Position numbers and translations under genes: made by a program. From contig OY783196.1 of NCBI GenBank assembly GCA_963678675.1, positions 14,936,138 to 15,000,137 on the forward strand: DNA of 64,000 bases. The letters run 5' to 3'. Source of the DNA: Xiphydria camelus. Its lineage: Eukaryota > Arthropoda > Insecta > Hymenoptera > Xiphydriidae. Positions 146-27,899 of this stretch are shown here, piece after piece. Position 1 is the first letter of the stretch. Every line of letters starts with the position of its first letter. The notes below the pieces were generated by a model. That model was not told the DNA's origin, did no database searches, and saw nothing but the letters and a program-made list of their open reading frames with translations.

Positions 146-186
<41 letters not shown>

Positions 187-6504: not shown

Positions 6505-6567
6505 GGCTCACTTGCTAATTATTTAATCACTTTACTATTTAACCACTATACTACTTGACCACTTAAT

Positions 6568-6585: not shown

Positions 6586-6827
6586 TGTGAAGATTTATTT
6601 AAGTAAGGTACATATTTGTTACATATTGCTCGGCTGCTGGTCTCTTACGCACTCTCTCTCCATGCCCGTCTCTACCGGTCTCCTCACTCTCTCCCCTCCA
6701 TTTCCACGCATGCGCACCATCCTGACTTTCCTCTATATAAATTTGCTACAGGTATATACTCAACAGATATGGAATTGAAAGTATTTGTTGTTTGGTATAT
6801 ATATGTGTATGTTATAAGGAGTTCACA
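6586..6827 (-). repeat. Copia 5' LTR (about 242 bp)
   Basis: Bounded by the primer-binding site at 6585 and by TGTGAACTCC (minus strand) at 6827, giving a TG...CA LTR. A TATA-like TTTATATAGA lies within it on the minus strand. There is no second LTR in the window because the 3' half of the element is lost, so the outer border is less certain than the inner one. Confidence 0.65.
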
Positions 6828-6834
6828 TTTTAAA

Positions 6835-6868
6835 ATTATCGAGGCGTATGTTTTTGCGCCTCGATAAT
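6835..6868. repeat. 12-bp perfect hairpin
   Basis: ATTATCGAGGCG and its complement surround a nine- or ten-base loop, directly beyond the copia LTR border. Its origin is unknown. Confidence 0.7.
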
Positions 6869-6974
6869 GTTAAGGTATTCATTCCAGGACAGAGCAGGTA
6901 CACATACACCTGGCGCAACGGATTCTGTGTCGCTGGTGACTTTTTAGAATAAAACATATTTGTAATAACGTGTC

Positions 6975-7190
6975 GTATAGGCTAGGCAAGTATCTCAAAT
7001 TAATGACGCGCGTGCGACCTCGTGGATAGTCCACGAAGCTTTGGGGTGATAAGTGACCAGTCGGGATCAAGTATTCCGTTGTCTCTAACCCACCACAATG
7101 GAATACTTGATCCTGATTGGTCACTTATCACCCCAGAGTTACGAACTGCGACCACCTCGTGGCGCCACTAGAGATACTTGCTTAGCCTAT
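6975..7190. mobile_element. Foldback MITE
   Basis: Arms such as AGGCTAGGCAAGTATCT (left) and AGATACTTGCTTAGCCTA (right), and inner arms GGGGTGATAAGTGACC and GGTCACTTATCACCCC, are inverted around about 7080. A left-arm fragment of FB1 (about 6905-6945) lies just before it. Confidence 0.75.
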
Positions 7191-7939
7191 ATCGCATATC
7201 GCATATCATTTCCATACTCTTAATTCCATTCTTTCTCAAACAATCACATTATGTTCCCTAAGTGTGACATTAATGATCACTATTTAATGTCATAGAATTG
7301 AACATCATTTTCAATTCATGATTTACTGTTTAATTATTTGTTTTTATATTAGAAATATGGCACAATATACAGTCGTTGAGTTCAGCGATGGTCTGCAACT
7401 AGTTCCTACTTCATGGTTAATCAATGACACAGAGTGTCAATGGCCAATATATACGAACCCAACGAGAATAACCAAAGCGGTATCAGAAGCGGAAAGACCG
7501 TTAAATACTTGGACTACTCTTGCCGTAAAACGAATTTTCTGCACAACAAGTAAATATACTTTATTAAAACAATTTTAATGTAGAAAATATTACGTGAAAA
7601 ATATTTTATTTCTCTTTGGTAATTTCTCTTTAGGATCATAATGCACGTACCCCAAGTAACACGATGACGTCATTTTAACGTTCTTTTTTGGTCAGTTGTG
7701 ACGTCTTCCCAGGTAGCAGTGACACGTCATATTCACGTCGCTTGAAGGTGATTGTTCGTCGACGACGTCATATGCCTTAAATTCGACGTTTTAATCACGT
7801 GTTATTTGAAGATCATATTATGACGTCATTGAAATGACGTTTTTTTCACGTAATTTGTTGACGAAACAGTCACATAATTTATTATTTCCCTACGCATAAT
7901 CAGGTGTGTAACTGTAAGAAATGTATAAGATGAAATACC

Positions 7940-8075
7940 CATCAGTTGAAAAGTTTGTGAGATATTTTCGTTCAAAGTACAAGAGTAAATTGCGCTGCGT
8001 GCGACTAAGTTTCCAGCGCCCAGCGAAATTTACTCTTGTACTTTGAGCGGAAATATCTCACAAACGGTTCAGCGA
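7940..8075. mobile_element. Foldback MITE inside E1
   Basis: TTTGTGAGATATTTTCG and AGTACAAGAGTAAATT on the left are mirrored by AATTTACTCTTGTACTTT and AATATCTCACAAACG on the right. It lies in the 5' region of E1 before the DUF4806 gene. A related fragment occurs near 10570-10650 in the last intron of that gene. Confidence 0.75.
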
Positions 8076-8685
8076 ATGGACATTTCACCTTTTACCTTTT
8101 TTTGTTCATCTTGACGAGCTCTACTACTTTTGTAGGAATTAAAATACCGAATTCCACTTAAAAAGATGAAAGTAACCTTCATATCTCGTAAATAATGCGT
8201 GTCATTGAAAATCTGTTGCATCTACCATATGTATCTTTCAATACCAAACAAATTTTATTTGAAATATATTTTCATAAAATTACAAATAACGGAAATAAAC
8301 GGGATTTTCCCTTGATACCTCTGCGGGATACTTTTTACAAGAACTCCAACGGAATAGAAAATCACGGCATTGCGGGTACCCGTGTTACCTGCCACTTTCC
8401 TTGGTATCCGCGTTTAATGAGTTCCATGTGCTGACCAAATGCCGTAGACCGAGGTGGGTCTTTCCCTATACTAACGTACCGTCACCACGGCAGAAACGGT
8501 TTATTTCTTTGAGTTTGAAAATTTCGGTTCAGTCACGTCGGTAGTCCCGTACAGTTCAAACGATATTCGAACATTCGTGGCATTTTCAGTGCAGTGCATA
8601 TACGATTTCTTAAAGCAGCAAAGTGACAGGAAAATAAAAGTGAGAGCGAGCGAAAAAAGAGTGACTGTATAAGACGTCGCGTATA

Positions 8686-10800
8686 ATGACATATGTAGGC
8701 GTCGAGTTTTCTGCTTCCGAGGAATGTGCAGGCGGCATAGCTGTAGTAAATAGCCGCTGGTTAACGCCACGAAAAAAAGAAGTCTTGTGGCCACCATGCA
8801 AGACGCAAAATGAATACAATAAATTATTAAAACGTGGGGAAAATCCAGATGAGGAGACCTGGACAGTGTATGGTATTTGCCGTCGTTTTTTTGAGTGCGG
8901 TAAGTACACACATATGCTTATTCCTTCTTAACAAAAGGGGGATAACAACGTAAAGCCGAATTTTTGGAGCTCCTCATTATCTTTTCTTTGTGATATGGTT
9001 GAGCGCTGAACGAATGCACGAGATATCGTTCGATAACATTTTTTTTTATTTCATCAGATTCTTCAATTCGATATTAAAAAACTATAATCATTATATTTCT
9101 ATACAGATGATTTTGAAAAAGCTTCGTATAAAATAAAACAAGCCGAAGTAACCTCAGATATACAGTCAGGTATTGAAACACCAAAAAAAAAGCAATCGTG
9201 GAAGAGAAAAGTCTCTGCTACCCGCAAAATTTTGTCTGATTCGAGTGACGAAGAAAATATCAGTCTTCTTCCTAGACCACCGAAGGTAGAAATCTATAAA
9301 AAGTCTGGTTCTGAGTGCAAAAGATTGAAACTGGGAGAGGATGGTACGTACACCTGAAGAATTATTAATGAACATGGCTGATTATATTTTTCGCGCTGGC
9401 ATTTCGATAAATTTAAGAAGATTTTCAAATTGAGCCTTCATTAAATAATTATAGGAAATTTAAAACTTGATTTGTATCATTTTATGGACATGATCCAACA
9501 ATTACGAGCAATCTTATTACATGAAATAAGCTATTTAACAGTTTTGTATCATATCTTTGTATGAATTAGAAATGTATGATCTGAATATTTTTTAGTTAAT
9601 TCCGATCCACATTCTATTAATACAAGAAATGATGATGATTATTCAGTTCAACCATCTCATTCAACGATCTCTCATCTTTCAAAAGTATCGCAATCTACCG
9701 GTACTTTGAATAATGATTTAGATGACCTAGCAGCAAATAATGTTAATAATATCGGTAAGCCTATGGTAATTATATTTGAAATCCAATATTTCAATATGTG
9801 CGGGTAAAATTGCCTGCACATATTGCAATACGACAAAACGTTTCCGCCAACCTAATATACAGATGTTATGTAGGAAAATTAACAGACGTATGTCTATATA
9901 TTTTTACCAATACTTTGATTAATTTATTGTAGTGTTTCAACGGAAGTTATTACGAGAAATTTTTATTATAAAAGAACAAAATACCCAAATACTTCGATGG
10001 ATTGAAAAGCAGTCAACAACTGCCACGTTAAACCAATGTCAAGCAGCACATTTACCATCAAATTTACCGATTAATACTACTGATGATCTAGATGGATTCG
10101 AACGTTATTTAGAAGAAAAAGAAAATTTGATTGGCTTCGTAAGAATTGTCTCTTTACTTATAAACATATTGACATATAATTTGATTCAAGCTTCTCTATA
10201 TTTGATTACTTCTTTTTATTATCATACTTCGTAAATCATATGAATAGCATACATATACGTATACCGCAATTCAAGAATTCAATTTATCACTTTAACTCAA
10301 TTTCAAAAGTCACATCACAACATATTTCCAGACATAAATAAGCCTATACAAAAAAGGAATAACGTTTTGTTTCAGTCTACATACCTATCACAATTGGGCG
10401 GTAAAAACACATCATCCAAAGTAAATAATATATTACGTCGATGCATAACAGACAATCTCGCAAAAGAATATAGTTTCTTTGGCAAGCGTGCAGATAAGAA
10501 AGTTTTTTCACAACTAAAGTTGAAGACTGCCGTCGTTCGTAAGTATTCTGACATACTTTGAAGAATGAGTTATGCTGCGTGCCGCTACAAATTCCCATTA
10601 CACATCAGAGTGGTGGAACAGATTACTCTTGTATTTTGAGTGGCAATATGTTTAACAAACTTGTTTGAAATTGTTTAATTCCAGGTGCAATAAACTCAAC
10701 TGATTGTTCAGAACAAGAAATCAACGACAGTATCAAAATTTGGCTTAAACACGCACCTCAACGGTACAAAATTCAAGAATTGAAGAAACAGAATCCTTAA
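8686..10800 (+). CDS. DUF4806-domain protein of E1 (putative subterminal-repeat binding partner)
   Basis: Six exons with consistent GT-AG borders and phases: 8686-8899, 9107-9343, 9596-9754, 9933-10138, 10376-10538, 10685-10800, giving 364 aa. The N-terminus (MTYVGVEF...GIAVVNSRWLTPRKKEVLWP) is a small domain shared with the E0, E2 and E3 proteins. Lys/Arg- and Ser-rich linkers follow, then a helix (IKEQNTQILRWIEKQ), the LP..T.DDL..FERYLEE motif and the DUF4806 core LGGKNTSSKVNNILRRCI, ending with a WLKHAP motif. The start is the first ATG before the conserved domain. The stop is in frame with, and two codons before, the transposase ATG. DUF4806 has no known biochemical function that I can name. 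A role like that of TNPA of En/Spm, binding the subterminal motifs, is inference from its constant pairing with tnp2. Confidence 0.85.
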
Positions 10801-10803
10801 ACA

Positions 10804-12894
10804 ATGAGCAGAAAGACGACAAATGCAACTACAGGGAAACGTCAGCGGAATAGAAAAATTGCAAAAGCTGTCGAAAATGCATTACATGAAATAAAACAGG
10901 AAAGTAATAGAATTCAAGTAACGAAGGAGTCTATTGCACATAATCATAAAAGCGAAAATGTATATAGAAGCGATTGTGATAGCAATGTTTCACCGCTACT
11001 TCAAAATAGTACCCACATGAATCGCGTATTTTTGAATGACAGTGCTACCACATCAGAATTAGTCTATAACAATGATACTTTTGAAATGCTTTCCGATAGT
11101 AGCAGTACGATTGAAACACCTGATCTCTCTCAGAAGCTGAGACTTTGGGCAATAACTAGGAATGTACCTCGCTCGACAGTTAATGATCTATTACACATTC
11201 TTTCGCCCTATCATCCAGATTTACCGCTTGATTCACGAAGTTTATTAGTAACTAAATTAAATATAGACACTAAGAAACTAGAAAACGGGGAATACTGCCA
11301 CTTGGGTTTATTGAATGGAATTAAAAAAGTAATTTCCCCATATCTGAAGGATATTTCTAGTAATGTAATAGAAATAAGTTTCAATGTTGATGGTTTGCCC
11401 TTATTTGCAAGTTCGAAAACGCAGTTGTGGCCTATTTTGGGGTTAATAAAAAAAATAAAATGTCAACCTTTTGTTGTTGGAATTTTTTGTGGCAACGGCA
11501 AACCAAAGCCACTAACCGAGTTTTTAGAAAATTTTGTAAATGATCTTAGTCATTTATTGGAAAATGGCATTAAACTTGATAACAAAAAATATATTGTCAC
11601 TTTACATAGCTTCGTTTGCGATGCTCCAGCTAGGGCATACTTAAAATGTATAAAATCTCATGGCGGATACTCTTCTTGTGAAAAATGTACAGAATCTGGC
11701 GAGTATGTCGATGGAAGAGTTACATTGCAAGGTATTCATGCGCCTAAGAGAACTGATACTTCATTCTCTCTACAAATAGATAGCGACCACCACTTAGGCG
11801 TTTCACCTTTATCGAAAATTCCAACAATAGGATTAGTGTCAAATTTCCCCATAGATTATATGCATAATGTATGTTTAGGTGTTGCTAAAAAGTTATTAAA
11901 TACTTGGATTTCTGGTTCTTTACAAGTCCGCCTAGGCAGTAGATCAGTTCATCTATTATCAGAACGCTTATTGTCATCGCGATTTTACATTCCTGTAGAG
12001 TTTAACCGCAAACCCCGCAGCTTGGAAGAATTGCCACGCTGGAAAGCAACAGAATTTAGAACTTTTGTATTATACCTAGGTCCGATTGTATTAAGAAATA
12101 TCGTAGATCCCTCGATATATGAACATTTCTTGCTCTTTCATTCTGCTATTACTATTCTGATTTCATACAAACACATTTCCACATTCGGCTGCAGGACTGC
12201 TGGCAATGTTTTAAACGTATTTGTTAAGCATTGTGAAAAATTGTATGGCAAACAATTTTTAATTCATAATATTCATATGTTATCTCACCTCAGCGATGAT
12301 GCAGAAATGTATGGACCTTTGGATAATTTCTCAGCGTTTGTTTTCGAAAACTTTTTAGGACAAATTAAACGCTTAGTGAAGTCACCTAATAGACCACTAC
12401 AGCAAATTTGCCGCCGTATAAGTGAAATTGAAAGTGCATTTATTAATGAAAATATCAAATTAAAAGGACCAATAATTCCTAAATTTGAATATAACTGTGG
12501 CCCTCTTCCTACAAATATTATTTTCAGAAACAGTAAACAATTTAAACAACTACGCTTGCAGAATTTCCAGATTTCTGTCCATGCATATTCTAAAGCTGAT
12601 TCGTATTGCCTTATAAAAGAATCTAGATCAGTTGTGCAAATTCATAATATTTTGATGGATCACAACAATTCTTTTACGATAGTCGGGAAACGATTTTCAT
12701 TTCATACATCATTATATTGTAATCCAATAGATTCTAAAGAATTAGATATTTATGTCATCACAGGAATTTCAAATGATTATGAAACATGGCCTATCAACGT
12801 TATTACTGCTAAATGTCTAGTTCTACCTATTACTCAAAAGAATGATAAAGATTGTTGGGTTTCGTTGCCTTTAATACACTCGATTTATACTTAG
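10804..12894 (+). CDS. tnp2/Transposase_21-like transposase of E1
   Basis: Uninterrupted 696-aa frame. The N-terminal third is basic, then acidic and Ser-rich. A conserved block LRLWAITRNVPRSTVNDLL (about 116-134) precedes the core. Core motifs match CACTA/EnSpm tnp2 proteins: FNVDGLPLF (Asp196) with LWPI, CDAPARAYLKC (Asp273) with a following C-x2-C pair (Cys292, Cys295), IDYMHNVCLG (Asp351/His354), and FENFLGQIKRL (Glu515). Asp196, Asp273 or Asp351, and Glu515 are candidates for the DDE/D triad; I cannot assign them with certainty. A C-terminal region of about 150 aa (GPLPTNIIF...) is shared with E2 but absent from E3. The protein should cut and join the CCCA ends. Confidence 0.85.
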   Translation: MSRKTTNATTGKRQRNRKIAKAVENALHEIKQESNRIQVTKESIAHNHKSENVYRSDCDSNVSPLLQNSTHMNRVFLNDSATTSELVYNNDTFEMLSDSSSTIETPDLSQKLRLWAITRNVPRSTVNDLLHILSPYHPDLPLDSRSLLVTKLNIDTKKLENGEYCHLGLLNGIKKVISPYLKDISSNVIEISFNVDGLPLFASSKTQLWPILGLIKKIKCQPFVVGIFCGNGKPKPLTEFLENFVNDLSHLLENGIKLDNKKYIVTLHSFVCDAPARAYLKCIKSHGGYSSCEKCTESGEYVDGRVTLQGIHAPKRTDTSFSLQIDSDHHLGVSPLSKIPTIGLVSNFPIDYMHNVCLGVAKKLLNTWISGSLQVRLGSRSVHLLSERLLSSRFYIPVEFNRKPRSLEELPRWKATEFRTFVLYLGPIVLRNIVDPSIYEHFLLFHSAITILISYKHISTFGCRTAGNVLNVFVKHCEKLYGKQFLIHNIHMLSHLSDDAEMYGPLDNFSAFVFENFLGQIKRLVKSPNRPLQQICRRISEIESAFINENIKLKGPIIPKFEYNCGPLPTNIIFRNSKQFKQLRLQNFQISVHAYSKADSYCLIKESRSVVQIHNILMDHNNSFTIVGKRFSFHTSLYCNPIDSKELDIYVITGISNDYETWPINVITAKCLVLPITQKNDKDCWVSLPLIHSIYT

Positions 12895-13230
12895 GAATAA
12901 TTAATGTATAATATCCTTCAATAGTACCGAAATACATAACACGTACGTTAGAAGTTATACACATACCGTACGTTAGAAGTTTTAACATACAATATGTATT
13001 ACGTACATATATATGTATATTCTCAAATATATGTAGATGTTATTTCTCGAATATGCAATTGTGTATTAATATTTTTCAATGCCTATTATTGTAATTCTAA
13101 TGATCATATTTCACTGTTTAACAATATTGCGACTAGAGCTTTACTTACATTTTTTACACTCTTCTTTAAAATTTCCTTGAGTTTAAATAATATTGCAAAG
13201 CTTTTCACTGAGAATAAGATTTTAAAGTGT
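12895..13230. other. 3' region of E1, no further gene
   Basis: AT-rich stretch between the transposase stop and the right subterminal repeats. It contains a repeated ACGTACGTTAGAAGTT motif at about 12940-12985 and presumably the polyadenylation site. The frame at 12994-13266 has no recognisable domain. Confidence 0.5.
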
Positions 13231-13732
13231 GACGTCTTTAGGATGGCATTATCACGTAACTTTTAACGTCAATATGACGACCCGAATCAATAAAAACGAA
13301 CGTAAATAAAACGTGACTATAGTGACGACATATTGACGTCGAAGTATGACGTCTCTTTAACGAGACATAATCACGTCATTTATGACGACATTATAACCGA
13401 ACTAATCACGTTATTTCGACGAATCGAGTGACGAAATATTGACGTGAGTTTGACGTGCCACTGCTACCTGGGTTGTGACTTTCAGAATCACGTATTATTC
13501 ACGTGAGAAATGACGTGATAATGTCTCAGCCCAGAAACGTCATTTTGTAACGTAGCAGAGACGTCACTCGGTGACGTTTTAAAGACGGCACTTTTTAGAT
13601 ATTTTTTGACGTATAAACCACAGGGTATTTTATATAAAATATTTGCAAAAAAAGTCGGATTTTACGGTTTTAGTTTTATTCATATTTGCTTGAAATACAT
13701 TAAAATATAATACCTACATACATTGTAATAAT

Positions 13733-13861
13733 ATGAAGGGTTTCTTACAAGAACCAAACAAGTCCATACATTATAAGGTTGTCTTGTCGGTTGTTTCTAA
13801 GTAAAAAGTCCGCCTTATAGCATATGGACTTGTTTGGTTCTTGTAAGAAACCCTTCATATA
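13733..13861. mobile_element. Foldback MITE in the 3' region of E2
   Basis: GAAGGGTTTCTTACAAGAAC on the left is mirrored at 13835-13858, with CAAGTCCATA and its complement continuing the arms. It lies between the E2 subterminal repeats and the 3' end of its transposase gene. Confidence 0.8.
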
Positions 13862-13972
13862 CTTATTTGTTACATAAAGGAATGTCCCCATTTTAAATCT
13901 TTTAATTTAAATGTTTCAACAAAGACACTCTTAAAATGGAGACACTGTATACTAGCTGTGAGCTTATAATCA

Positions 13973-16073
13973 TTATTTTATAGTATGTAGTAAAGGAAAA
14001 CAAACCAGTAATTCACAATGTGACAAAGACGTGTCAAAAAATGGCATAACTACACATTTAGAAAAAGAATGATCAAATTTCCATTGTTGCGGATGTAACG
14101 ACAGATTTTCCAGTAAGCATACACCAAAATCAATAGAATTTTGTGGATAAGTAAACAAGGGTTTATACATAGAAAATGTTTTGCCAATAATGAATGTGCC
14201 GCAATCATTCACTACTATATTGTCTATTTTAATAACTTCTTTTTCACGTACACAATAGCAGTCAGAAATTTTATATGTACAAGTAGTTAATGTGAAATTT
14301 CCAACAAGCAGCTTTTTGAACTGGTGTCCTTCTATATTTTGGAATGTAGGTCCATCGCGATGTTCATATAAATACTGAAACGCCCCCTTTTTATTATTAC
14401 TTATTTTAAAATTTGCATTGATTTCTTGCATTCTGTTACAGATCTGTTCTAAAGGTTTATATGGGGACTTTATTAATTTTTTCATACAACCTAAAAAACT
14501 TTCGAAAGGGAAAGCCGAAAAATTATCCAAAGGACCAAATTTATTGACGTCTTCACTTAAGTGACATAAAGTATGTACATTGTAAACAAAAAATTCTCTT
14601 CCATAAAGTTTTTCACAATGTTCGATAAAAACAGTCAGAAGCCTATGAGCGTATTTTACATCAAACTCTTTAATATGGGAAAACGATGCAAGTATTGAAA
14701 TACCACAATGTAGTAATAAAAAGTGTTCATAAACAGCTAATGGAACATGTTTCTTAAGCACGACAGGACCCAAATAGAGTAAAAAGGTGCGAAATTCAGT
14801 AGCTTTCCAATTCGCTAATTCTGATAATGGCCGTGGTTTTCTATTTATTTCAATAGGCATATATTTTCGTAGCAAGACTAATTTAGAAGATATAAGCTTA
14901 ACTGTTTGGCTTCTTAATCTTGTCTTCAAATCTCCCCCTAACCAAGTATTCAATAGTTTTCGTGTAACACCTAAGCACACACTATGCATGTAATCGATAG
15001 GAAATTGAGAAATAAGTCCAATTGGCAACTGAGTTAATGGTGATATTCCGAGGTGATGATCCTCATCTATTTGATTTAAAAATGAGCTATCTGTTCTTCG
15101 AGACGCCGAGGTACCTTTTAAAATTACACGTCTATTAACATATTCCCCCACTTCCGTACATTTATCGCAACTCGAATAGCCACCATGCGACTTTATGCAC
15201 TTTATGTATGCCCTGGCAGGTGCATCACATATAAAGTTGTCGACTACAATAGAGTAGTGAATACTTTTGATATTTATGCCATTTTCTAAAACACAATTCA
15301 GTTCATTAATAAATTCATCCAAAAACCCAGCGAGAGGTATTGGTTTTGATTTTCCACAAAATATTCCTACAGGAAATGGGGAATAATTATTTTTAAGACT
15401 GTTAGTCACACGAGCTAAGATGGGCCAAAACTGAATATTTGAACTTCGAAAAAGAGGAATTCCATCTATATTAAAGCTAAGTTTTATCACCTGGCTAGGA
15501 AAATCTTCACATGCTAATTTATTTAAAGCCTCTACTAGACCTACATGACAATATGTTCCATTTTCTAATTCTTTGATATGACTCATGGCTGATGAAGAAA
15601 CTTTTAATAAAGTGCGGCATTCTAAGGGTAACTCTGGATGAAACTTGGATAGTTTATGTATCAAATCAGTAACAATGGAATGTGGAATGTTAGATGATAT
15701 TGCCCATTTCCGTAATGTCTCTTTTAAATCATCAGAGGAATCCTCGGAAGAATTAGAGCCTAATGAATTTGAGGATATGTAACTAGCAATGCCATATTTA
15801 TGAGTTATATTAGAAGTTTCTTCAACACAGTCGCTAGGAGTATGCTCCAATATTGATGATGTTTGCGATACATTCTCAGGTAAAGTTACAGTTTCAGTGA
15901 ATACCGATGTAGACACTTGACTTTCAGAAATTTGCTTTGGAAGAAAACCCTGCTTTATAAAACATTCGTTATCAGTAATCTGATCTAGCACTTGTAATTG
16001 TTCCTTAACAACTTTTTGTACACGCCTATATATCTGCCTTTCGCTGACAATATTTTTTTTTGAAATTTTGCAT
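13973..16073 (-). CDS. tnp2/Transposase_21-like transposase of E2
   Basis: The open frame gives 672 aa from Met at 15991 and matches the E1 protein throughout (SFNIDGIPLF, CDAPARAYIKC, IDYMHSVCLG, FESFLGCMKKL, plus the C-terminal domain). By homology to E3 (ISDRQIRRLVQ) the protein should start further upstream, with VSERQIYRRVQ. The likely start ATG is at 16071-16073, but a run of nine A (16053-16061) puts it one base out of frame; eight A would join them. This may be a true frameshift, transcript slippage or a base-calling error. The ATG is 27 bases after the DUF4806 stop and in the same frame as it. Confidence 0.8.
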
Positions 16074-16097
16074 TTTTAAAAAATTTTTGAGTATATT

Positions 16098-19000
16098 TTA
16101 CTTCCTTGTGTTTGCTCTCACCAATCTTTGAGGAACGTGCTTAAGCCAAATTTTTATGGAATCCTCAACTTCCTTGTCTGTTATGCCAGGACTATTTAAT
16201 TTGACAGCCTCTAAAAAAATAGGTTTAGGTAAATATTCAGTGTTTCAGTATTTTATAATTTTAGTTCAAACTTAAAACTTTACTTACTAATTACAGCTTC
16301 CTTTAACAGTAAATTACCAAACGGAATTTTCCCAAGACGTTTTCCATAAAATGAATACTGCGTTGCCAGATCGTCAGTAAAAATTATTTTCAGGATTCGG
16401 TTCGTTTTGGATGTGCAATCTTTGCCACCTACACTGTTCAAATAAACAACCTACAAAAAAGATAATATTAGTATTGGTTTGTAGAAAAAAATATCACCTA
16501 AAACTTTTTAAAACAGTAAAAAAGTTTGAATCCCGCAGATAATACATATACAGGGTGTCCATAAATAATTCTAGGGCTGATTCTACGCACGAAAAATCTC
16601 GATATTTACCAAGTTAATAACCTCAAAATATTTGTTTTTTTAAATATATTTTGCCACGTTTTTAGTAGTGTACAAATTTTTTTGCCCATAATTTCCTGAT
16701 ACCCTGCATACCAGATTACTACATAATTTCGTATAAGAAAGATACTCACAACTGATGACAATTTTTCATTACATTTTAAATATTCTTCCACATGCTTAAT
16801 GTCATCTAAATGAGTTAAAGGCAGCTGTACTGGAAAATCAGCAGGTATTGCGACAGTTTTCGATACATCCTTATTTTTGATGTAGTTTAAAATTTGAATG
16901 TTCTGCTCTTTTATAATATTAAGCAAAGTTAATATTTGGGTTCTGAATTCTAAAAAAAAAGATAGCCATTAAATTATATAAAAATAATACAATATACCAG
17001 AATAAATTATTTTTGAATTAATAGAATTAAAAACATTATTTTTTTAAACCATCTTTCCACATCTTTCTTTAAACGTGCTTAATTTTGACACTACTGGTAT
17101 ACTTAAACTACATTTTTTTTTCTTTTCGATAGCTCTTATTCATTCGGGCATCCCACATATTTCTTATATATGTACTCACCTAGCTCATCCCCACGTGCCC
17201 TAGGTATCCCATGGGATGTTTCGTTGTTAACAGGTCGGCGTAAATCACTTGTGCTTGCTTGTAGTGAATTAATTGTGGTTTCATTAGAAGGAGTGTTTTC
17301 CAATACAACTGACCTTTTAGTATATCCTTAAAAAAAAATTAGTTGCATGGATTAATATCTTAAGATGAAAACGTAGAAAAATTCTGAAAACTTGGACTTT
17401 TAAGGAGTAGGGAGTGCTGGCAAAAATACCTGTTCTTTTTGTTACAAATCTGAAAAAAAAATGGTTCGCTTTTTGCAAAAGATTCATACTTAAGCAAAAA
17501 CTTACCCTTGGGTTATTACCGAGTACTCTAAGTGAAAGATTTTAACATATTTTCAAAAATGTTGATTTTTTTTATCAAAAATTTTCCAAAGAAAATTTTA
17601 TTCACTTAGTGAACTCGGGAATAACGCAAAGAACATTTTTGCTTTATAAAGTTTTTGCGAAAAATGAACCATTTTCCTTTAGATTTGTAACAAAAAGCGT
17701 TATTTTGTGCCAGAGCTCACTGCTCCATAAGACTTTCGAAGGATATTTCTGTAGAATTTACAATAAAACAAAATACAATGGAAACATTTTAGTTCCCTTC
17801 GCCCCATTGATGTTACCTAATGTATGAAATTTTCACAATTTTCCTAAGTTTCCATTTCAAGATATTAATCTATGCAGTTCGTGGTAAGACACTTGACACA
17901 TATACAAAAATTAAATTGAATAATATAAACATATCAGATAAGAAATGAAAATAACTTACCACTCTGACTTCCGCCAACTGGAGTCAGTTGTAAACTCAGT
18001 TGTCGAGTATCACATACTTCTTGCGAGAGCTCAGAAAACTGAGAACTTACAGCTACCTGTGTTCTGTTACAAATAGGTCTATCTTGAACTGCTGAATAGG
18101 GCTCTGATGATAAATTATTTGACGCTAAAATTAGTAAACACAATTAAAAGATTCAAAAAATAAAAAATTGCCAATCTGTATAATGCTAACGTGCTAAAAA
18201 ATTATTTGTAGTTTTTCAAGAAAAAAAAATAAATATGATTTTAGAGTTTATAGACAGTAGGCAAAAAGAAGGTTGCAAAAAAATTACCGTTTTCATTCCA
18301 TTTAATTAGAGGTGGGCGTTTTAATGACAAGTTGTCCTCGTCCTCTTCTTCACTACCACTACGGGAAACGAAACGTGATGGTTTCTTCAATTTGCGCTTC
18401 CTTTTATTTGAACATTCTGAATCTGTTGCTAAGTCAGAAGTTACTTCGGCTAGTTTTAATTTTTCCTCGGCTTTTCCTAAATTATCTGAAAAATGAAAAA
18501 TAAATGTAGATGTACTTATAAAAGTAATGCCTCCTATTGAACTTGCGAGCTATTTTACATTTCACTCATTCGATAAAATATCATTTTAGCTAAGAGTGGG
18601 TAACTATTAAAAAGTTTCTTCAATTTTTACCTGGTGAAATTTCATTCAAAAAAGTTTGAGGCACTTGAAAAAAGTGTATAATAGGATAAGCAAATGGCGA
18701 GGCAAATGGAGATCTGCCAAAATTTATTATTTACCTTGTTTCAAAAAAAAAACGGAAAAATCTGAACAAATTAAATGTAAATTGTTTTTTTAGCCAATAC
18801 TTAATAAATATTCACAATTCCACTCCAACAAATCAACAAATTTAGATATTTATACAAAGATTGCAAAAACCTAACCTAACCTAGGTAACTTAGGTATCTA
18901 TTTTTAGGTTAAGTTAGATAAAGAAAAACCAACCTGTTTCGTAGAATTGTCGGCTAATTTTATAAAGATTCCATTTTGTCGTGTCAGGTTCCTGGAGTGA

Positions 19001-19141
19001 TTGTAAAGCTTGTTTATAAACTTTTTGGTTTTTTGTTGATGGCCAAAAAACCTCTTTTTTCCTTGGAGTAATCCAGTTGGAAGCAACAACAGCTAGACCG
19101 CCACCATCGTTCTCCTCAAACTCAATTAACATATAAGACAT
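16098..19141 (-). CDS. DUF4806-domain protein of E2
   Basis: Seven exons on the minus strand: 18934-19141, 18288-18485, 17960-18124, 17180-17326, 16750-16949, 16288-16450 and 16098-16210. All splice phases agree and no stop interrupts, giving 397 aa. Starts MSYMLIEFEENDGGGLAVV with WITPRKKEVFWP, nearly the same as E1; the middle is Lys-rich with SGSEEEDED and an extra Ser/Thr-rich exon (17180-17326) absent from E1. The end has LP.THLDDIKHVEEYLK, the DUF4806 core SVGGKDCTSKTNRILK and WLKHVPQRL. The DUF4806 core exon is 163 bp in both E1 and E2. The first intron donor is a weaker GTTGGT. Confidence 0.8.
17402..17735. mobile_element. Foldback MITE in an intron of the E2 DUF4806 gene
   Basis: GTTACAAATCTGAAAAAAAA on the left is mirrored by TTTAGATTTGTAACAAAAAG on the right, and GGGTTATTACCGAGT by ACTCGGGAATAACGC, around a centre near 17565. 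It is confined to the intron between 17327 and 17959. Confidence 0.7.
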
Positions 19142-20560
19142 CTACGGTCAAAAATCAATGTTTACTTTCAAGAAAGTAATAAATATTTTTCATATTTGTT
19201 TGAATTGTAGTTCTTCCGGATGATTCCTGCGTCGATAACACTTGCTGTTTCAAGCTTCCGCGTCACAGTCTCACAAGCTGACAGTCTCAGTGTAGGTAAT
19301 CGTCACTCCCCTGAGGATGTCCTATATAATTGTGGATGAAATCTCGGAACAGCAAGTTTCACCGATGCAGGAGTCTTAGGAAAAAACTACACTTTCATCG
19401 TATAGGTACAGCCTGTGAAAGTCGAGGTGAAAGTTTCCAATCAAGAATAGTTTTATCAGATTGAATATTCTGATAAATGGCCAACGTGAGCAAATTTTAT
19501 AGCGATTTTTATTTTAACTGCACTTGTGTTCTCAGGGCACAGTGCACCTCCTCAAGACAAAGACTTGTCAACCTGACTATAACTTTTTATATTTATTTTC
19601 CTCGAAAAACAGAATAGACTTACATTGAAAGAACAGAAGGTCGATTTCAGGTTCAGAACACAAAATATTATGTAAAAATAATATCCCTTGCGACACTAAC
19701 GTTTTTACAATGGCCAATGGCGGCCAAGGGACAGTGGACACGCTACTCCACCGGAGATAACAGGAAAATACTTTTCTATCTATACTAGATAGGTAACTAA
19801 TTTGTTCTCAGTGCCACACAACGGCAAACTATGCACCACAAATCATACCATATACATCTTCTGCAATCTGCTGAACTGGCGCGCACGTGTAGGCGACGGC
19901 GTGAATAATCGGAAAAGGCACAGGGCAGTAGTGGGGCGCACAGGAAAACGAAAAAAGGACGTGGCAGGTGATGGCGGCGCGGGTGGAGTGCGGGTCTGGA
20001 TCACAAAACTGACAAAACAAGCAAGCGGGATGGCCTGGCAGCGCGGCGGTCGGCTGGCGCAGGCGCACCGCGCATTACGCATGTTGCCAATTTTCTAAAG
20101 GTTCATTTCAAATGTAACAGTTTACTAAAAAACCATTCTACAGTAATTTTGTGCCATATTAACCCTATTATTTGGTATTCAGGTAAATATTTTGGCAAAA
20201 TAACATTGCCTTGTCATGTTTTTTAAACAAAAAAGTATTTATTTGGTCCAAAAATAGAGATTTGGCAACGCCACGGCTATGCTACTCTGAAAGGCCGGCG
20301 ATTGGGGGATAGTGATCACATGACATAATCCTTCAAATTTTTGGCGCGCTTGATGACGGCACGTGAGGAATATACTGCGTTTGAAAGAAAATATTTTTCT
20401 TGCAATTAATTGTAGACAATACATTAATAATTACATTTTGTTTGAAAGTAAACAGAGATCAATCTTGCCATAAAAAATACCTACCTAAATTAAAATTTTA
20501 TAATAATTAATAGTAATAATAACAATACCATAATAGTTGGTAGCAAGTTTTTATTTAAAT
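19142..20560. other. 5' region of E2; no gene; one foldback
   Basis: This stretch separates the start of the E2 DUF4806 gene from the right subterminal repeats and would hold its promoter. A foldback at about 19217-19378 pairs TTCCTGCGTCGATAACACTTG with its complement. The GC-rich stretch at 19870-20080 has long frames on both strands, but they show no domain and I do not call them genes. Confidence 0.5.
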
Positions 20561-22050
20561 TAACGTCATTAAATTTAATAGTAAATCACGTCTCTTTGTC
20601 GTCACTATTGAGTCGTCTATAAAACGTCTTAAATTTGACGGCAATGCGACGTCAATTTTTCGTCATCTGACGTCGCGCGACGAAACTCACCAAAAAGAAA
20701 CGTCAAAATGACGTCATCGTGTTGCTTGGGACGTAACGTGAAATTAACTGTTCTGTGAAAAAAAATCGACAAAATACATTTTATTACACATGTGTTCAAA
20801 TGAATCCAATCCATTTAATTTTTGTTTTCGGAATTGTAATTCATATTTCGTTATATCTTTTTTAGATTCATACGCACGAGGAATCGAGAAAGTTAAATTA
20901 GCCTAAAAATTTTCAGATATTGAAAGCACATCTGATTCCGAACACCACAAAAAAGCGAGGCACGATCGTGCTAAAAAAGTCCCGAAAGATTCTTCTGTCT
21001 CCGAAGACGAAGAATGTGACGATAAATCTAACTGGAGAAACACAAAACTGCTAGGCTACCTTTACCACCTAAAATTCCATCAAACTTTTCTTCACATAAA
21101 GCTACACCGCTATCGCGGCATGACTTCGACAAAGTATCTTCAAAACCGACAATGACTTCGAAACAAAATTCATCTACCACTACAGTTTCATCTCACTCGA
21201 CACTAGAAGGAGATCATGAATTAACAAAGCAAGTGCATCGTCTGCTTTCAACGTACTCCACAGATATTGGTTAGTAATATAAGATTTTGCTGTTCTGTTG
21301 TAATTGAAAAAATATATAAATTACCTGTATCAATTTATTTATTATAGAACTGAAGAAAGAAATTTTGCGTAAGCTAAATCAAATGAATATAAAGCTGGAT
21401 AGCATTGACGAGCGTTTGCGTATTATCGAAGAGAGAGGTTGTGGTGAAAATGATCGAAATATGCAGCTTCATCTGGACGACATCATATCATTACCCTTAA
21501 AATCTCAAGAAGATTTTGAACTTCTCGAAAATGATCTGGTTGATAGAGATTTTTACAAAAGAATGGTAAGCATTGACAATTTTTCATCTAGATAATTCTG
21601 CTCTGTGAGCTTTTGAATGTCTCCATTCAATACTGTAAAGATGACTATAGAGGCATCCAAATCACAGGTTTGTGTGATACTTCAAAAATGTAGAAATTTT
21701 CAAATAATAACATTTCTCACTTTCGTTAGGTACTTTTTTTACACAAAATTGGTGGAAAAGATTGCCATGATTTGACATTTAATATATTGAAGCGAACCAT
21801 AACAAATCCAGTGGCTATTCTTTACTCTTGCCCATACAGCACTGAAATATTGCAGCAATATTGTAGAAACATTGCGTCGTAAGATAGCAATATTGCAGCG
21901 AGATTATGAAATATTGCTGCAATATTGCTACAATGATGCAGCAATATTGAAATGTCCGATCTTCGCAATATTGCGTTGCAATATTCCAACAATATTGCGC
22001 TAAAATATTTTAGCAATATTGGTTCGAAAATGTAAATTTAATTTTTATTA

Positions 22051-22150
22051 AGCCTTGAATCCACGATGTTAGAACTCGATCAGAATTTTAATTACTCACA
22101 CAGTGATTGAAAACTCGGACCGAGTTCTACCACCGTGGATATAAGGCTTT
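22051..22150. mobile_element. Small foldback element inside E3
   Basis: AAGCCTTGAATCCACGATG and AGAACTCG are mirrored by CGAGTTCT and CACCGTGGATATAAGGCTT. About 100 bp, just inside the left subterminal repeats. Confidence 0.7.
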
Positions 22151-22311
22151 ATAGGAATTCCTTTCAAATAAAAAGAACTGCAGTTCCAAAATATCACACG
22201 TATATTTTTTATATTGTTTTATAACTATGTTAATATATAATAACTGTAGTATCTGGCTATATACATATAATATACATATACAGCTACATTTGTACTTGAG
22301 AATTCATAAAT

Positions 22312-24112
22312 CTATTCCTTATCTTGTTCTTCTACCATAGCTTTCCCTAGTGCATGCTCCTGATTCGCCTTCCGTACCCTTCTTATTTTAGCTTGCGCTA
22401 ACCAGTTGCCAATTTGTTTTAATATTTCATTACTGGTGCCATTTGAAAAACGACTAAGAACTGCTTCTGCAATGAAAATATAAATTATTTCTTAATATCG
22501 AACATGATCATGATTTTACGACGTATAGAACTTACTTATTATTACTTCAAGTATGAGTGATTCTTTAAAGGATCGTTTTCCTTTGCGACCATACACACTA
22601 AACAACTCCGCCAGTTCATCAGACATTATTTTCTTCATAATGCCGCTTATAACTGCATTAAAGTCGTCTCCTCCAATGGTTTTTACCATTTTAACCTATC
22701 ATATATTCCATATTATGTATTGTTACCTATTATGTCCGATAAATCGTTTGAGCACAAGTTATCATTTTGCTAACTCTACAATCTTATCTCAAACACGTCT
22801 TTCACATTTTGTACTTACAGAATATTTTCATATTTTTAACTTTTATACGTTTTTACAATTTGATAAGTATCGATTCATGTAAATTTATGGTGATGAATGT
22901 TGAAAAAGGTTTCAATCAGACAGAGCCTCAATAAATTAAATAAAATCAAAAGAAATTGTAAAACAACTAACGATGCGATTTAAAAAATCTTGATTGGCCA
23001 GCTCTATTTCAAATTGCTGAAGTTGCGTTATATCGCGTAGTGGCAAATTTACGTCTTCAACGGTATTTTGATCGCCAATAGGAATAAGCCGCTCTTCTAA
23101 TATTGCGAGCTTTGCATTTGTGCTGCGTACTTGGTAAAGTAAAAGGTTTTGTTTCCTCAATATTTCTTTCAGAAAACCTGCAAACGAAATAAAATATTAT
23201 ATATAATTAATAAATACGATAAACATCGTTATTTTCAAAATACCTTTTATTTCCTCTATATTGTTATTTGTTTGAGCACGAGTAAATGATGAGCAGTGTT
23301 CATTTTCCGAGAAAAATGACCCCTCGCGAATATTTCCTAACATGGATGAGTGATGGGCAATTGGTTCTGTTGTACAAGTATATCAGAAAAAAATTAATAA
23401 ATTATATTTATTGCAAGAAACACACATAGATGTATTTTCTGTAGAAATACCTTTCTGTGATAAATGCACGTCCGGGGTATTAGAGTCACTTTTCGCGTCA
23501 AAGCTAGCATTTCTCTCCTTTACAACAGGCATATTTGAAATTTTCGGGCCGGATGATCTTTTACGGTCATCATTCTTTGGCCTCAGAGTAGAAGCTGGGA
23601 ACGTTGACAAAATAGTTTCTTCGAAATCCATGTTTTCTTCATCCGAAGAAGACAATTTGCGCTTTGCCTGTTCACGTCTTTTAAATTTCAACTTGATTTT
23701 ATGCCTCTCTTTTTCATTATCTGATAATGCGGAATCGTTTATATTGGATGTATCCTCGGCCAAAACCAGTTTTTCCATGCCTTTTTCGTAGGTAGCTGCG
23801 TTATGTATCAAATTGAAGAAAGGCAAACATTCGAAGTGTTAGTTAATACTTTCAAAAAATTACTTCACTAGCAATTTTCCTGACAGTAATAAACTGTGTA
23901 CCTGCTGTCCCAAATATTTTCTTAACCTCAACAACTGACCAATCCTCATTGTCTTTTGGCATAAGTTCTTTAATAATTGCTTTATTTAAAAATAATTGAG
24001 TTTTCAAATGATCCGGCCAAATGCATGATATATTTTTGTTTAAAATCCTTAACCAAGCTGTAGGTACCAGCTGCAATCCACCATCGAACTCTACAATGGA
24101 ATATTTGCTCAT
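22312..24112 (-). CDS. DUF4806-domain protein of E3
   Basis: Six exons on the minus strand: 23902-24112, 23451-23795, 23244-23366, 22972-23177, 22536-22695 and 22312-22466. Phases agree and no stop interrupts, giving 399 aa. Starts MSKYSIVEFDGGLQLVP, closest to the dead E0 protein; the Lys/Arg-rich second exon includes KRREQAKRKLSSSDEE. Then come a helix, LPLRDITQLQQFEIEL, the DUF4806 core TIGGDDFNAVISGIMKK with YGRKGKRSFKES, and a terminal helix with WLAQAKIRR. The fourth exon is 206 bp, as in E1. The ATG lies inside the 3' end of the transposase reading frame, in a different frame. Confidence 0.82.
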
Positions 24113-25841
24113 CTTGAGATCTGCATTTATTGCATATATTTGCTTGATTATCTGAATTTGTTTCTATTTCGGAATACCTTTTCCATAACTGCTCCAATGG
24201 TTTCTCGTTTTTTCTCAGAAGCTTTTTTATAGAAGACATAAAATTCTCAAATCGGAAAGCACTGAATGAGTCCAGAGAGCCATAATTCCTTACGTCATTG
24301 CATAAATGTAATAAACCGTGTACGTTATGTGATACAAATTGCTCGCCGTACAATTTCTCAAAAGACGTCACAAAATGAACCAGCAAAAGCTCAGCATATG
24401 ATACGTATTCATCGTCTTTGCACATAATTGGGTTTACTAAGATCGTTATAGCTACATGCAATGTCAGGAAATGTTTATATACATCACTTTTGACGATATT
24501 CTTTAATGCCAATGGTCCAGTGTACAATAGAAAAGTTCTCAATTCTGTAGCTTTCCAATGTCGAAAATCAGAGAGAGCTCGTGGTCTTCGATTTAAATCA
24601 TTTGGCACCGTATTCTGTAGTTGAAGAAGTGATGTTGAAATAATATTGATTTTTCTAACGGGTAATCGAATTGAGAGGGGTCCTGATTGTACCCAAAGTA
24701 GAATCAACTTTTTTACTACACCTAAACATACTAAGTGCATGTAATCGAGGGGAACGTTTGTTACTAATCCGAAGTGTGGTACTTCATTCAGAATAGAATT
24801 TTGTAATTGATAATCTTCATGGTAACAATTATTTTTGAATTCGTCGTCCGTTCTTAAACTGACATTATTATTCTGATTTTGTGGAAAGCAAAGTCTGTTG
24901 TTCACACGTTCTCCTTCTATTGTGCATTTAGTGCAACTATAAAATCCAGCATGACCTATGACACGTAAGACAAAAGATTTCGCTGGAGTATCGCATATCA
25001 ACGCCCGCAACCTTATTTGTACGCTTTCTCCATTTTTAACGTATTCGTTAGTAATTAGGTTTTTTAAATCATCTATTAATTGCCGTAGAAATGTATTACA
25101 ATCGCTCGGTTTGGTATTTCCGAAATATGCTCCTGCGATATATACTTTTTGGGACACATCGTTCGAGAGTAGTATGGGCCACAGGGAAGCATTAGAAGAT
25201 TTTGATATTGGCAACCCATCAATATTTAGGAGTAAATTAATGTAGGAAACATTATCACTGATGTTTGCTAACATTTTTTCAATTACTCTAGAGACACCAA
25301 AGTAGCAAAATTTTCCATCTCCTAAAGAAATTACGTCACAATTCTTTGGCGTTTGTAACAACGTTCTGGTATCTTTTGGAAAATCACAGTCTGTGAATTT
25401 GTTAAGAATACCAAGCAACGAGTTACATGCATTGTGAGTAATATTATATGATACAGCCCATGATGCTATGGATTGTATAAAATTAGTAGTTTTATCATTA
25501 TGTTCTTCTTCTTCCACATTCTTATCTTCATCATAAACATTGGTGCGCAAGTGATCGCTCATAAAATCATGATTTACATTTAATTCTGCATAAGCGTCAG
25601 TGTCAACGTGATTAATGCAACTATCCTGAGAATTTTTATCATTTTCTGGATAATCTAGACTTGTGCTTGAATTGCTATGTAATGTACTTTTTTCTTTTGT
25701 TCCGAAATACTTTTTTGCGTATTGAAAACGCGAACGTATTTTTATTTCTTCAATCTCCTCTTTAGTTTGTGCTTGAACCAATCGCCGTATTTGCCTGTCT
25801 GATATTTTTCCTTTAATTTTTCTCTGATTAGCCATGTCCAA
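23982..25841 (-). CDS. tnp2/Transposase_21-like transposase of E3 (short C-terminus)
   Basis: The frame gives 619 aa. Motifs: ISDRQIRRLVQ near the start, IASWAVSYNITHNACNSLL, LLNIDGLPISKSS with LWPI, CDTPAKSFVLR with C-x2-C, LDYMHLVCLG, and FENFMSSIKKLL. Homology to E1 and E2 stops just after the glutamate helix (RYSEIETN). The last 40 or so codons overlap the first exon of the DUF4806 gene in another frame and are probably not ancestral. The C-terminal domain of about 150 aa found in E1 and E2 is missing. Either it is dispensable, or an unseen splice supplies another end. Confidence 0.78.
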   Translation of the reverse strand: MDMANQRKIKGKISDRQIRRLVQAQTKEEIEEIKIRSRFQYAKKYFGTKEKSTLHSNSSTSLDYPENDKNSQDSCINHVDTDAYAELNVNHDFMSDHLRTNVYDEDKNVEEEEHNDKTTNFIQSIASWAVSYNITHNACNSLLGILNKFTDCDFPKDTRTLLQTPKNCDVISLGDGKFCYFGVSRVIEKMLANISDNVSYINLLLNIDGLPISKSSNASLWPILLSNDVSQKVYIAGAYFGNTKPSDCNTFLRQLIDDLKNLITNEYVKNGESVQIRLRALICDTPAKSFVLRVIGHAGFYSCTKCTIEGERVNNRLCFPQNQNNNVSLRTDDEFKNNCYHEDYQLQNSILNEVPHFGLVTNVPLDYMHLVCLGVVKKLILLWVQSGPLSIRLPVRKINIISTSLLQLQNTVPNDLNRRPRALSDFRHWKATELRTFLLYTGPLALKNIVKSDVYKHFLTLHVAITILVNPIMCKDDEYVSYAELLLVHFVTSFEKLYGEQFVSHNVHGLLHLCNDVRNYGSLDSFSAFRFENFMSSIKKLLRKNEKPLEQLWKRYSEIETNSDNQANICNKCRSQDEQIFHCRVRWWIAAGTYSLVKDFKQKYIMHLAGSFENSIIFK

Positions 25842-26968
25842 TTTTTTAGCATTTACATAAAATTTAAAATCTCTAGTTTTAATTTTAAGTTATCCATACC
25901 ATACGAAAGGTAACCCTGTTATAGAAAATTGATAGAAATAAATGAAAAAAATTATTCGGCAAGTAACAGAGAATTATTTTTCATAAACTGGAAGACGTTA
26001 AACTGATAGAAGCTATGTGTATCTTATTATCTCATCAGACTTACCGTGAAAGTATAATTAGGTTATGTTAATCCATTTTATTCGTACCAATATAAATTAT
26101 AGTAACGCACTATTAGTAACTTTTTACATGAAGAATTGCAATAGATAAAAATGTATTACTTAGCGAGTTTAATTCTCATCTATGTATAGTAAAGCAAGAT
26201 CGTTCTTATTCACTTTTATTGCAAATTCCGCACGTAACACCTCATGTAACCATTCGTAGACAGGGTTATAAAACAGCGAGAACCAAAGCTTGCCTATTGC
26301 GATGATTTGCACGCCACTCGTTGGATATATGCAGTACTAAAGCATAATATTGCAGGAAGTTTGCAGCAATATTGCAGCGCAATATTGTACGGACATTGTA
26401 CTGCAACATTGCAGCAATATTTCGCTACAAGATGAAAGATTGCAAGATTCCTGCAATATTGCAGCAATATTTCATGCCGTGTGGGTGGGCTGGAACGAAA
26501 ACCAAAAAATCATTTAAAGACTCCCTTGTGTGTAAATGCATTATGCGTGAGTGTTATTTTAATCATTGTTCTCTTCAAGTAAGCTTGTATTGTGTGCTCT
26601 CCCCAATGGAAACTGTTCTTCGACTTTTAACGAGACTTCTATAAACTATTTAAAACATTTCTTTATCAGAGCTATAAACTAGACATTTCATGATTAAAAT
26701 AATTGGACATATATAAAATAATCAAATAAGCCTGGTTTCTCGATATTCCAGATAAAATTTATCTTTTAATTTTATCGATTAATTTTGCTAGAAGGACAAA
26801 TTTTACCTGAAATATGGAAATACTCAATTTAAGCAAAATAATTTTTCAGTAATAAAGTGTGTTTTAGAATCTATACGTTATGAAAATAATTATACGGAGA
26901 AAGAAATTACAGAATTAATTTCTAAGTGGCTCGTACAAGCGAAGCTAAGGAATGACAGAGAGACGTAA

Positions 26969-27725
26969 ATTTACCAAACCAATCGAATTCATTAACAACA
27001 ATTAAAGTTTGGTCTACAATAGTCAGAGTAAACGTAAACTTATTCGTATGAAGTTAAGTAATACGAAATCCTGTAAGTGATTACAATTAATATCATTCAA
27101 TGAGTATTGTGAAACGTTACACAATTATGCAATTTTATAGCTACTTCCGTAAGATTCCTTTTACGCTTACGGTTATTGCAGACTAAGCTTCAAATAATTT
27201 TCAAGTACATATTTGGCAGCATACAATATATTCAACTCCATTTTAATAGAAAGTAATGACTTATTGTTTTGAATACCTCATCTTGTATATAACTACGTAT
27301 GTATATTTACAGACAAAAACTGCTTCGTACTCAGTCTATTAGTAGCAAACCTACAGAAGACTTTGAAGATGAAAACAATAATTAACTGCGGATTGTCAGC
27401 ATGCCTGTTTATTTCCATAGCTCCCAAGATTATGTTGATTGACCACTAACAAACAGAAGAAGTTATCAGAAATCAAAGGTTGGACAGAAAGGAACATGGG
27501 TTATTGTTCTATAAATTTGTTTTGAATCTCAAAATATGAATTAATTTTTATTTTTGTTATATTAATCTCTAATATATGCAAAACTTGTTAGCTGTGATGT
27601 ACTAGTTAACATATGCGTTTACGTATATTTCTTCATTATTATATAGTTTTCAGAATTCCGTATTAAAAATATAATTTATATTCATTCGCATATGTCCTAT
27701 GATCACCATCCTCGAAATCATATAG
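26969..27725. other. E0 interior, no gene recognised
   Basis: AT-rich stretch after the last exon of the dead DUF4806 gene. No transposase remnant can be seen where E1 and E2 have theirs. Confidence 0.5.
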
Positions 27726-27892: not shown

Positions 27893-27899
27893 ATAGAAT

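Follow-up and report, generated by a model that had tools for sequence, protein, structure and literature searches.

A 64,000-nt stretch of the genome of Xiphydria camelus (contig OY783196.1; here called the window, with all positions counted within it) holds a nest of DNA transposons, of which the element named E0 is the oldest. Elements E0 to E4 all start with CCCA and finish with TGGG, and are flanked by target-site duplications (TSDs) of 2 bp: TA (E0), TT (E1), AC (E2), TG (E3) and AG (E4). E0 to E3 belong to the TRC group, the animal relatives of CACTA elements, and are cut-and-paste transposons that are autonomous or once were. The traits of the group were found as a terminal inverted repeat (TIR) starting with CCC (E0–E4), a 2-bp TSD (five elements) and the transposase motif D-x-[LM]-H-x3-L-G (3/3). 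Because the TSD has 2 bp and the ends read CCCA, not CACTA, E0–E4 are not plant-type CACTA elements. As originally predicted, E1, E2 and E3 each carry two genes on one strand, one encoding a DUF4806 protein and the other a transposase. The DUF4806 domain (PF16064) is predicted to adopt a BEN-type fold.

The gene pair and the elements that carry it

The DUF4806 gene of E1 (8686..10800, + strand, 364 aa) was modelled with six exons (8686-8899, 9107-9343, 9596-9754, 9933-10138, 10376-10538, 10685-10800), that of E2 (16098..19141, - strand, 397 aa) with seven (19141-18934, 18485-18288, 18124-17960, 17326-17180, 16949-16750, 16450-16288, 16210-16098) and that of E3 (22312..24112, - strand, 399 aa) with six (24112-23902, 23795-23451, 23366-23244, 23177-22972, 22695-22536, 22466-22312). 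All 16 introns of these models begin with GT and end with AG, and the spliced products are open. Scored against PF16064, the products reached 27.6 (E1), 30.6 (E2) and 31.0 bits (E3; E 3.7e-6 to 3.2e-7), each above the gathering cut-off of 25 bits, which confirms the family assignment. Protein identities are 36% for E1-E2, 26% for E1-E3 and 24% for E2-E3.

The transposase gene of E1 (10804..12894, + strand, 696 aa) follows the DUF4806 gene, its ATG (10804) lying three bases beyond the point where the DUF4806 stop ends (10800), in the same frame, with the stop and one codon between. Readthrough of that stop, or splicing around it, could yield a fusion protein from the two open reading frames (ORFs; 10798-10806, + strand). 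In E2 the transposase ORF (13973..16075, - strand, 700 codons from stop to stop) lies close behind the DUF4806 gene and lacks an in-frame ATG in its 5' part. The transposase gene of E3 (23982..25835, - strand) lies upstream of the DUF4806 gene, whose exon 1 its ORF enters in a different frame; homology stops at about 24144, and the C-terminal domain of the E1/E2 type is absent. The DUF4806 gene thus precedes the transposase gene in E1 and E2 and follows it in E3, the two lying on the same strand in all three elements. Transposase identities are 49% over 594 aa (E1-E2) and 37% over 561 aa (E1-E3).

These transposases had been predicted to be tnp2-like. None of the three matched PF02992 (Transposase_21) at E≤1, and their matches to its companion domain DUF4218 (PF13960) were below the gathering score of 27 (E1, 24.5 bits; E2, 23.6 bits; E3, 13.3 bits). 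The label holds through their relatives, since these match DUF4218 or Transposase_21: among 46 aligned transposases (E1, E2 and 44 of 120 listed relatives, two of them chosen with PF02992 already noted), DUF4218 was found in 44 and Transposase_21 in 11 (E≤0.1), and PF02992 was precomputed for 4 of the 120 relatives among the matches listed. The motif [LVI]-D-x-[LM]-H-x3-L-G is present in all three window transposases (IDYMHNVCLG, IDYMHSVCLG, LDYMHLVCLG), and the first TRC motif of DeMarco et al. (I/L/V-X-..-DG-..-WP) in E1 and E2, not in E3.

The structural model of the E1 transposase has a RAG1-like predicted fold, with a match to an RNase H DDE core, an inserted helical domain and a C2H2 zinc site. 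Candidate D, D, E, C, C, H and H residues are invariant in 46/46 aligned transposases and present in E1, E2 and E3, their correspondence to RAG1 being assigned by order and recall, without a printed alignment. The window transposase is therefore predicted to be a DDE enzyme with a RAG1/Transib-like catalytic core. It is unlike RAG1/RAG2 and Transib in its identity (9-12%), in its termini, in lacking RAG2 and in having a BEN-like partner. In the E1 transposase, the last ~140 aa (12466-12891, + strand) are predicted to form a BAH-like domain, a chromatin reader fold; the E2 C-terminus (13976-14383, - strand) aligned with this region and is similar, and E3 lacks it. A Pfam scan of the transposase C-terminus for a BAH domain gave no match, and the BAH-like call is one of fold only. 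RAG2 carries a PHD finger, to which a putative histone reader within a RAG1-like transposase would be a parallel.

E2 (7651..20730; TIR CCCAAGTAACACGATGACGTCATTTT, right end one base different; TSD AC) lies within intron 1 of the E0 gene described below, is 7,315 bp long without E1, and has terminal inverted repeats of 47 nt (89%). A reading in which E2 starts at the preceding base (CCCC..) and has a 5-bp duplication was dropped, as the 2-bp reading suits all five elements. E1 (7708..13472, 5,765 bp; TIR CCCAGGTAGCAGTG; TSD TT) sits within the left end of E2, and its terminal inverted repeats measure 32 nt (91%). E3 (21831..26485, 4,655 bp; TIR CCCATACAGCACTGAAATATTGC / CCCACACGGCATGAAATATTGC; TSD TG) lies inside the BEN exon of the E0 gene, and its inverted repeats (33 nt, 85%) begin 12 bp inside the end.

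E0 was located with a looser terminus pattern (2814..28632; TIR CCCAAATAGCAC; TSD TA at 2812-2813 and 28633-28634). It is 25,819 bp long with its inserts and 8,080 bp long without E2, E3 and their TSD copies. E0 is an insertion, because its target, a host repeat, occurs uninterrupted twice more in the window, with the flanks meeting exactly less one TA. Flank 2202-2814 is 98.7% identical to 34965-35577, and flank 28633-28959 is 99.1% identical to 35575-35901; for the second uninterrupted copy (36836-37773) the flank identities are 98.2 and 98.8%.

The E0 DUF4806 gene (7357..26968, + strand) is broken. Exon 1 is at 7357-7549, exon 2 starts at 20866 and holds an internal stop and a frameshift, the helix exon spans about 21348-21565, the BEN exon (about 21730-21830) is split by E3 and continues at 26488, and the last exon is at about 26850-26968. 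When the E3 flanks were joined minus one TG copy, a single open frame ran through the insertion site. The gene was detected by tblastn only, with the E3 and E2 products as queries (7357-7557, E 2.7e-9; 21356-21574, E 1.7e-4; 21730-21828, E 0.001); the last exon and the exact boundaries were read by eye. Copia-like gag-pol ORFs were seen, also by eye, in the left part of E0 (3760-6507, - strand). The original prediction had described E0 as a fourth element retaining a dead DUF4806 gene within 7651..26485. The gene is dead, yet a full element surrounds it; the interval encloses E1, E2 and E3, and E0 extends beyond it on both sides. The prediction would have been undone by DUF4806 genes that lack PF16064 or lie apart from such termini; in the window, all four DUF4806 genes detected (tblastn, E≤0.01) lie between CCCA termini of TRC elements.

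E4 (32979..34179, 1,201 bp; TIR CCCAGGTAGCACACT; TSD AG) is a gene-less TRC relative whose longest stop-free run is 59 codons. E5 (1..952, - strand, terminus at 952) is a second copy of the E4 family, truncated by the start of the window; positions 1-955 align with 33917-32976 at 97.6%. At this identity, and with TGACGT end blocks in place of genes, E4 and E5 were probably mobilised recently in trans.

Relatives in other insects and comparison with known systems

A search with the E1 DUF4806 protein returned 28 relatives, mainly from beetles and some from ants, and a search with the three window transposases returned 957 matches. Pairing was compared in 148 proteins (the 28 DUF4806 relatives and 120 of the 957 transposase matches), seven of which matched (E≤1e-5) a DUF4806 protein and also a transposase of the window, with DUF4806 first in 7/7. 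Five of the seven come from the beetle Rhamnusium bicolor and represent three families, as they include two near-identical couples; of the others, one is from the beetle Brassicogethes aeneus and one from the ant Cyphomyrmex costatus. The ant model (P0120) holds the N-terminal DUF4806 part only (146 residues against E1 1-133, without the BEN domain), and its joining to the transposase may reflect alternative splicing or an error of annotation. The seven proteins are probably fused gene models, as would be expected of ORFs spaced as closely as those of E1; the alternative is real fusion by splicing. One further protein (P0028), taken for a fusion by eye, was discarded because it matched no window transposase at E≤1e-5.

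In fireflies, DUF4806 and transposase genes bear consecutive locus tags on contigs of equal length in Aquatica leii (RN001_002793/002794) and Pyrocoelia pectoralis (RI129_012829/012830), adjacency being read on the assumption that tags run along the chromosome. A transposase neighbour was thus found for at least 2 of 10 firefly-tagged DUF4806 relatives (6 Aquatica, 3 Pyrocoelia, 1 Photinus). With three elements here and annotated beetle, firefly and ant proteins, the pairing of DUF4806 with a transposase is well supported in insects and the predicted two-gene system stands, E0 keeping DUF4806 only. When the DUF4806 half of a long fused protein served as query, the only hits among 2868 candidates were that protein and P0027, and one scan each of viral contigs and genome contigs confirmed no related loci.

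In plant En/Spm, TNPA binds the subterminal repeats and brings the ends together for TNPD. The window elements resemble this system in having two proteins that probably act in trans, dense subterminal repeats and a transposase placed in the Transposase_21 group through its relatives. They differ from it in that gene order in E1 and E2 is reversed relative to TNPD-TNPA, and in their CCCA termini and 2-bp TSD (3 bp in plants; PMC8978399, available part). DUF4806 is likened to TNPA by function; homology is not claimed.

The nearest described relatives are the TRC elements, namely SmTRC1 of Schistosoma mansoni and elements of Tribolium castaneum and Aedes aegypti (DeMarco et al., 2006; PMC1636069, available sections, here and below). 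These share the CCC TIR core, the 2-bp TSD and the [LVI]-D-x-[LM]-H-x3-L-G motif of the Transposase_21-type TRC transposases, and the Tribolium TIR (CCCTAGTAGCACCG..) is close to those of E1 (CCCAGGTAGCAG) and E0 (CCCAAATAGCAC). SmTRC1 likewise has, in tandem with its transposase, a short second protein, which its authors likened to TNPA, the non-transposase parts being described there as without detectable conservation (PMC1636069). The second protein of the window elements differs in being a DUF4806/BEN protein, and new here is that in insects the second TRC protein is DUF4806, a BEN-type protein by its predicted fold. The TRC element Spongebob occurs in Hydra and insects, and its exact transposase was not found by its authors. 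It is like the window elements in its CCC TIR and 2-bp TSD and unlike them in that no second gene is reported in the accessible part of the paper (PMC4298943). The accessible passages on DUF4806, IPR032071 or PF16064 linked no such gene to a transposon, subscription papers and Repbase lying outside the search. Among the papers listed, titles and abstract openings on BEN domain with transposon, BAH with transposase, insect CACTA, and CACTA with DUF4218 gave no such two-gene element.

Subterminal repeats and the predicted BEN-type domain

Subterminal blocks were defined as the terminal 2x260 bp of each element, and the motifs named here were picked from the data. The blocks of E1 (left, 7708..7967; right, 13213-13472) carry TGACGT / ACGTCA, those of E3 (21831..22090; 26226-26485) carry GCAATATT and GCAATATTGC, and those of E0 (2814..3073; 28373-28632) carry an TGGATATCCA-like motif. 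TGACGT occurs 12, 14 and 13 times in the blocks of E1, E2 and E4, each count above the maximum of 5000 Markov simulations (8, 5 and 6), and in their interiors once in 5245 bp, once in 6795 bp and not at all in 681 bp. Elsewhere in the window it occurs 44 times in the 45,164 bp outside 7651-26486, in part from E4 and E5. In E3, GCAATATT occurs 21 times in the blocks (simulated maximum, 4) and once in 4135 interior bp. In E0, where the third motif centres on TGGATATCCA, GATATCCA occurs 7 times in the terminal 2x260 bp (and 2x300 bp); it is the commonest 8-mer of the 260-bp blocks, and 0/1000 simulations reached this count.

The commonest word of each element was also compared with the commonest word of each of 1000 simulations. 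For 6-mers, P was 0.005 (E0), 0 (E1), 0.008 (E2), 0 (E3) and 0.001 (E4), and for 8-mers 0 (E0), 0.011 (E1), 0.027 (E2), 0 (E3) and 0.010 (E4). Perfect 8-bp palindromes were in excess in E0 (P 0.0085; 9 against a Markov mean of 3.4), E2 (P 0.004) and E3 (P 0.002).

In the predicted model of a beetle homologue (P0004), the DUF4806 region has a BEN fold, and the top 13 structural matches were BEN domains. The C-terminal domain of DUF4806 is accordingly a predicted BEN-type DNA-binding fold, like that of Drosophila Insensitive, human BEND6 and BANP. Sequence profiles compared with solved structures gave no significant match for the DUF4806 protein or the transposase (best E 0.99 and 0.9). In the last helix, the pattern K.W.KH.P.R is invariant in 25 aligned relatives and is also present in E1 and E2. 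DUF4806 differs from known BEN-domain proteins in being kept apart from BEN by Pfam, in being encoded on a transposon and in having an extra N-terminal domain. According to the available part of PMC6317261, Insv, whose BEN domain is accompanied by a coiled coil, forms a dimer on an 8-bp palindrome and higher multimers, and has been proposed to bridge distant sites; it is comparable in that the part upstream of its BEN domain is a coiled coil that multimerises. When viral structures (BFVD) were searched with the P0004 model, the top three matches were uncharacterised bracovirus proteins (E 1.8e-4, 0.004, 0.023); bracovirus BEN genes may share an origin with DUF4806.

A proposed role for the DUF4806 protein

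The observations as a whole are best explained, with a probability of about two in three, by a DUF4806 protein that in E0–E3 binds and bridges the subterminal repeats beside the transposase, much as TNPA does. The protein consists of a small N-terminal domain, a helix that may form a coiled coil and the C-terminal BEN-type domain. This last domain would bind the family-specific motif in the first and last ~260 bp, and the parts upstream would multimerise the protein, so that both ends are coated and paired. The paired ends would then be handed to the transposase, as TNPA does for TNPD, and the transposase would cut at CCCA. E4 and E5 consist of termini and blocks only, as one would predict from both proteins working in trans. 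We infer binding, multimerisation, bridging and a need for the protein in transposition; the analogy with TNPA, already drawn in the original prediction, is strengthened by the predicted BEN fold and by how densely the subterminal repeats are packed.

Several observations weigh against such a role. Foldseek matches to BEN are weak taken alone (best E 0.056, none <0.001), and the protein modelled was the beetle homologue, not a window protein. At the six K.W.KH.P.R sites E3 has G, W, A, Q, K and R, a pattern mostly changed; coupled with the different subterminal motif of E3, this single contrast fits specific recognition. The gene order of E3 also differs from that of E1 and E2. Palindromes are not in excess in E1 (P 0.64) or E4 (P 0.51), and the palindromy of the subterminal repeats is a tendency, not a rule. 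Eight of the ten firefly DUF4806 relatives have no transposase neighbour among the 120 matches listed; with 837 of the 957 transposases outside that list, these eight carry little weight. Three DUF4806 proteins (P0002, P0003, P0027) bear unrelated N-terminal extensions, and fusion alone is therefore no proof. The transposase itself could be the motif binder. No convincing tblastn match to a transposase remnant of E0 was found in 956-7356, 26960-32978 or 34180-64000, the best candidate (E 0.037, 141 aa at 22%) lying within a copia ORF. Across nine paired loci, DUF4806 and transposase distances gave a Mantel r of 0.66 (p 0.09) with E3 included and of -0.13 (p 0.75) with E3 excluded, so that co-divergence beyond the E3 split is unsupported.

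The last two results favour a transposase that reads termini and subterminal repeats alone, with DUF4806 a dispensable passenger kept through linkage, as the distances do not co-vary once E3 is set aside and E0 shows that the genes can separate. A passenger should decay, however, and the frames are open in E1, E2 and E3 despite 24-36% identity; the pair is also found again in beetles and ants, and this explanation is improbable. Still less can be said for DUF4806 as an ordinary host gene family in or near which TRC elements happen to insert. E2 and E3 did insert into a DUF4806 gene, that of E0, and the unrelated extensions just mentioned would suit such a family, but E1, E2 and E3 own very different DUF4806 genes, each within its own TIRs, E0 too is an element and has an empty site, and DUF4806 precedes the transposase in all seven fusion models. 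The host-gene explanation is already disfavoured and very improbable.

DUF4806 might instead be a conserved second TRC protein with a regulatory job, controlling transcription or chromatin as a self-repressor or anti-silencing factor and building no complex. Known BEN proteins repress transcription, insulate chromatin and recruit chromatin factors (available parts of PMC6911014, PMC10206803). The repeats flank the genes, where promoters are expected; they are, however, similarly dense at 3' and 5' ends, and dense in E4 too, which has no gene to regulate. A regulatory job on its own thus appears unlikely, and it is compatible with end binding, since TNPA does both.

Naming a BEN-type insect counterpart of the second SmTRC1 protein allows the idea that animal CACTA elements encode a TNPA-like helper to be tested. 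Many unexplained DUF4806 genes probably come from insect TRC elements, and those counted as host genes may be transposon genes. Enrichment or lineage specificity of the DUF4806 domain has been described for the genomes of beetles, Hydra and zebrafish (PMC13270666, PMC7642931, PMC11075544, each available in part), with 69 and 54 in two Hydra species (PMC7642931) and four genes on zebrafish chromosome 4 (PMC11075544). The Hydra and zebrafish genes, with the CCC-type TRC element of Hydra (PMC4298943), are leads, the pairing having been seen in insects only. On a wider reading, to which we give somewhat less than even odds, the DUF4806 branch of BEN is fundamentally a family of transposon proteins, an end-binding TRC partner across animals, with each TRC family matching its own BEN protein to its own subterminal repeat. 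If this is true, TRC elements would account for the many orphan DUF4806 genes found in beetles, ants, mosquitoes, Hydra and zebrafish, whether these are still element genes, relics or domesticated descendants. Animal BEN transcription factors would then derive in part from transposons, and once more an enzyme like RAG1 would have its partner encoded by a second gene of the same element.

Minor features were also recorded. An orphan TRC-like terminus (CCCACACAGCACAGATTTC; 28185, - strand) lies in the right part of E0, its partner not found. Long inverted repeats in E1 and E2 (7916-8102, 13726-13865, 17344-17876; arms 82-87%) resemble small inserted hairpin elements. The two uninterrupted copies of the E0 target form an inverted repeat pair (34965-35900 / 36836-37771) of about 0.9 kb and 99.4% identity, the third copy being the target itself.

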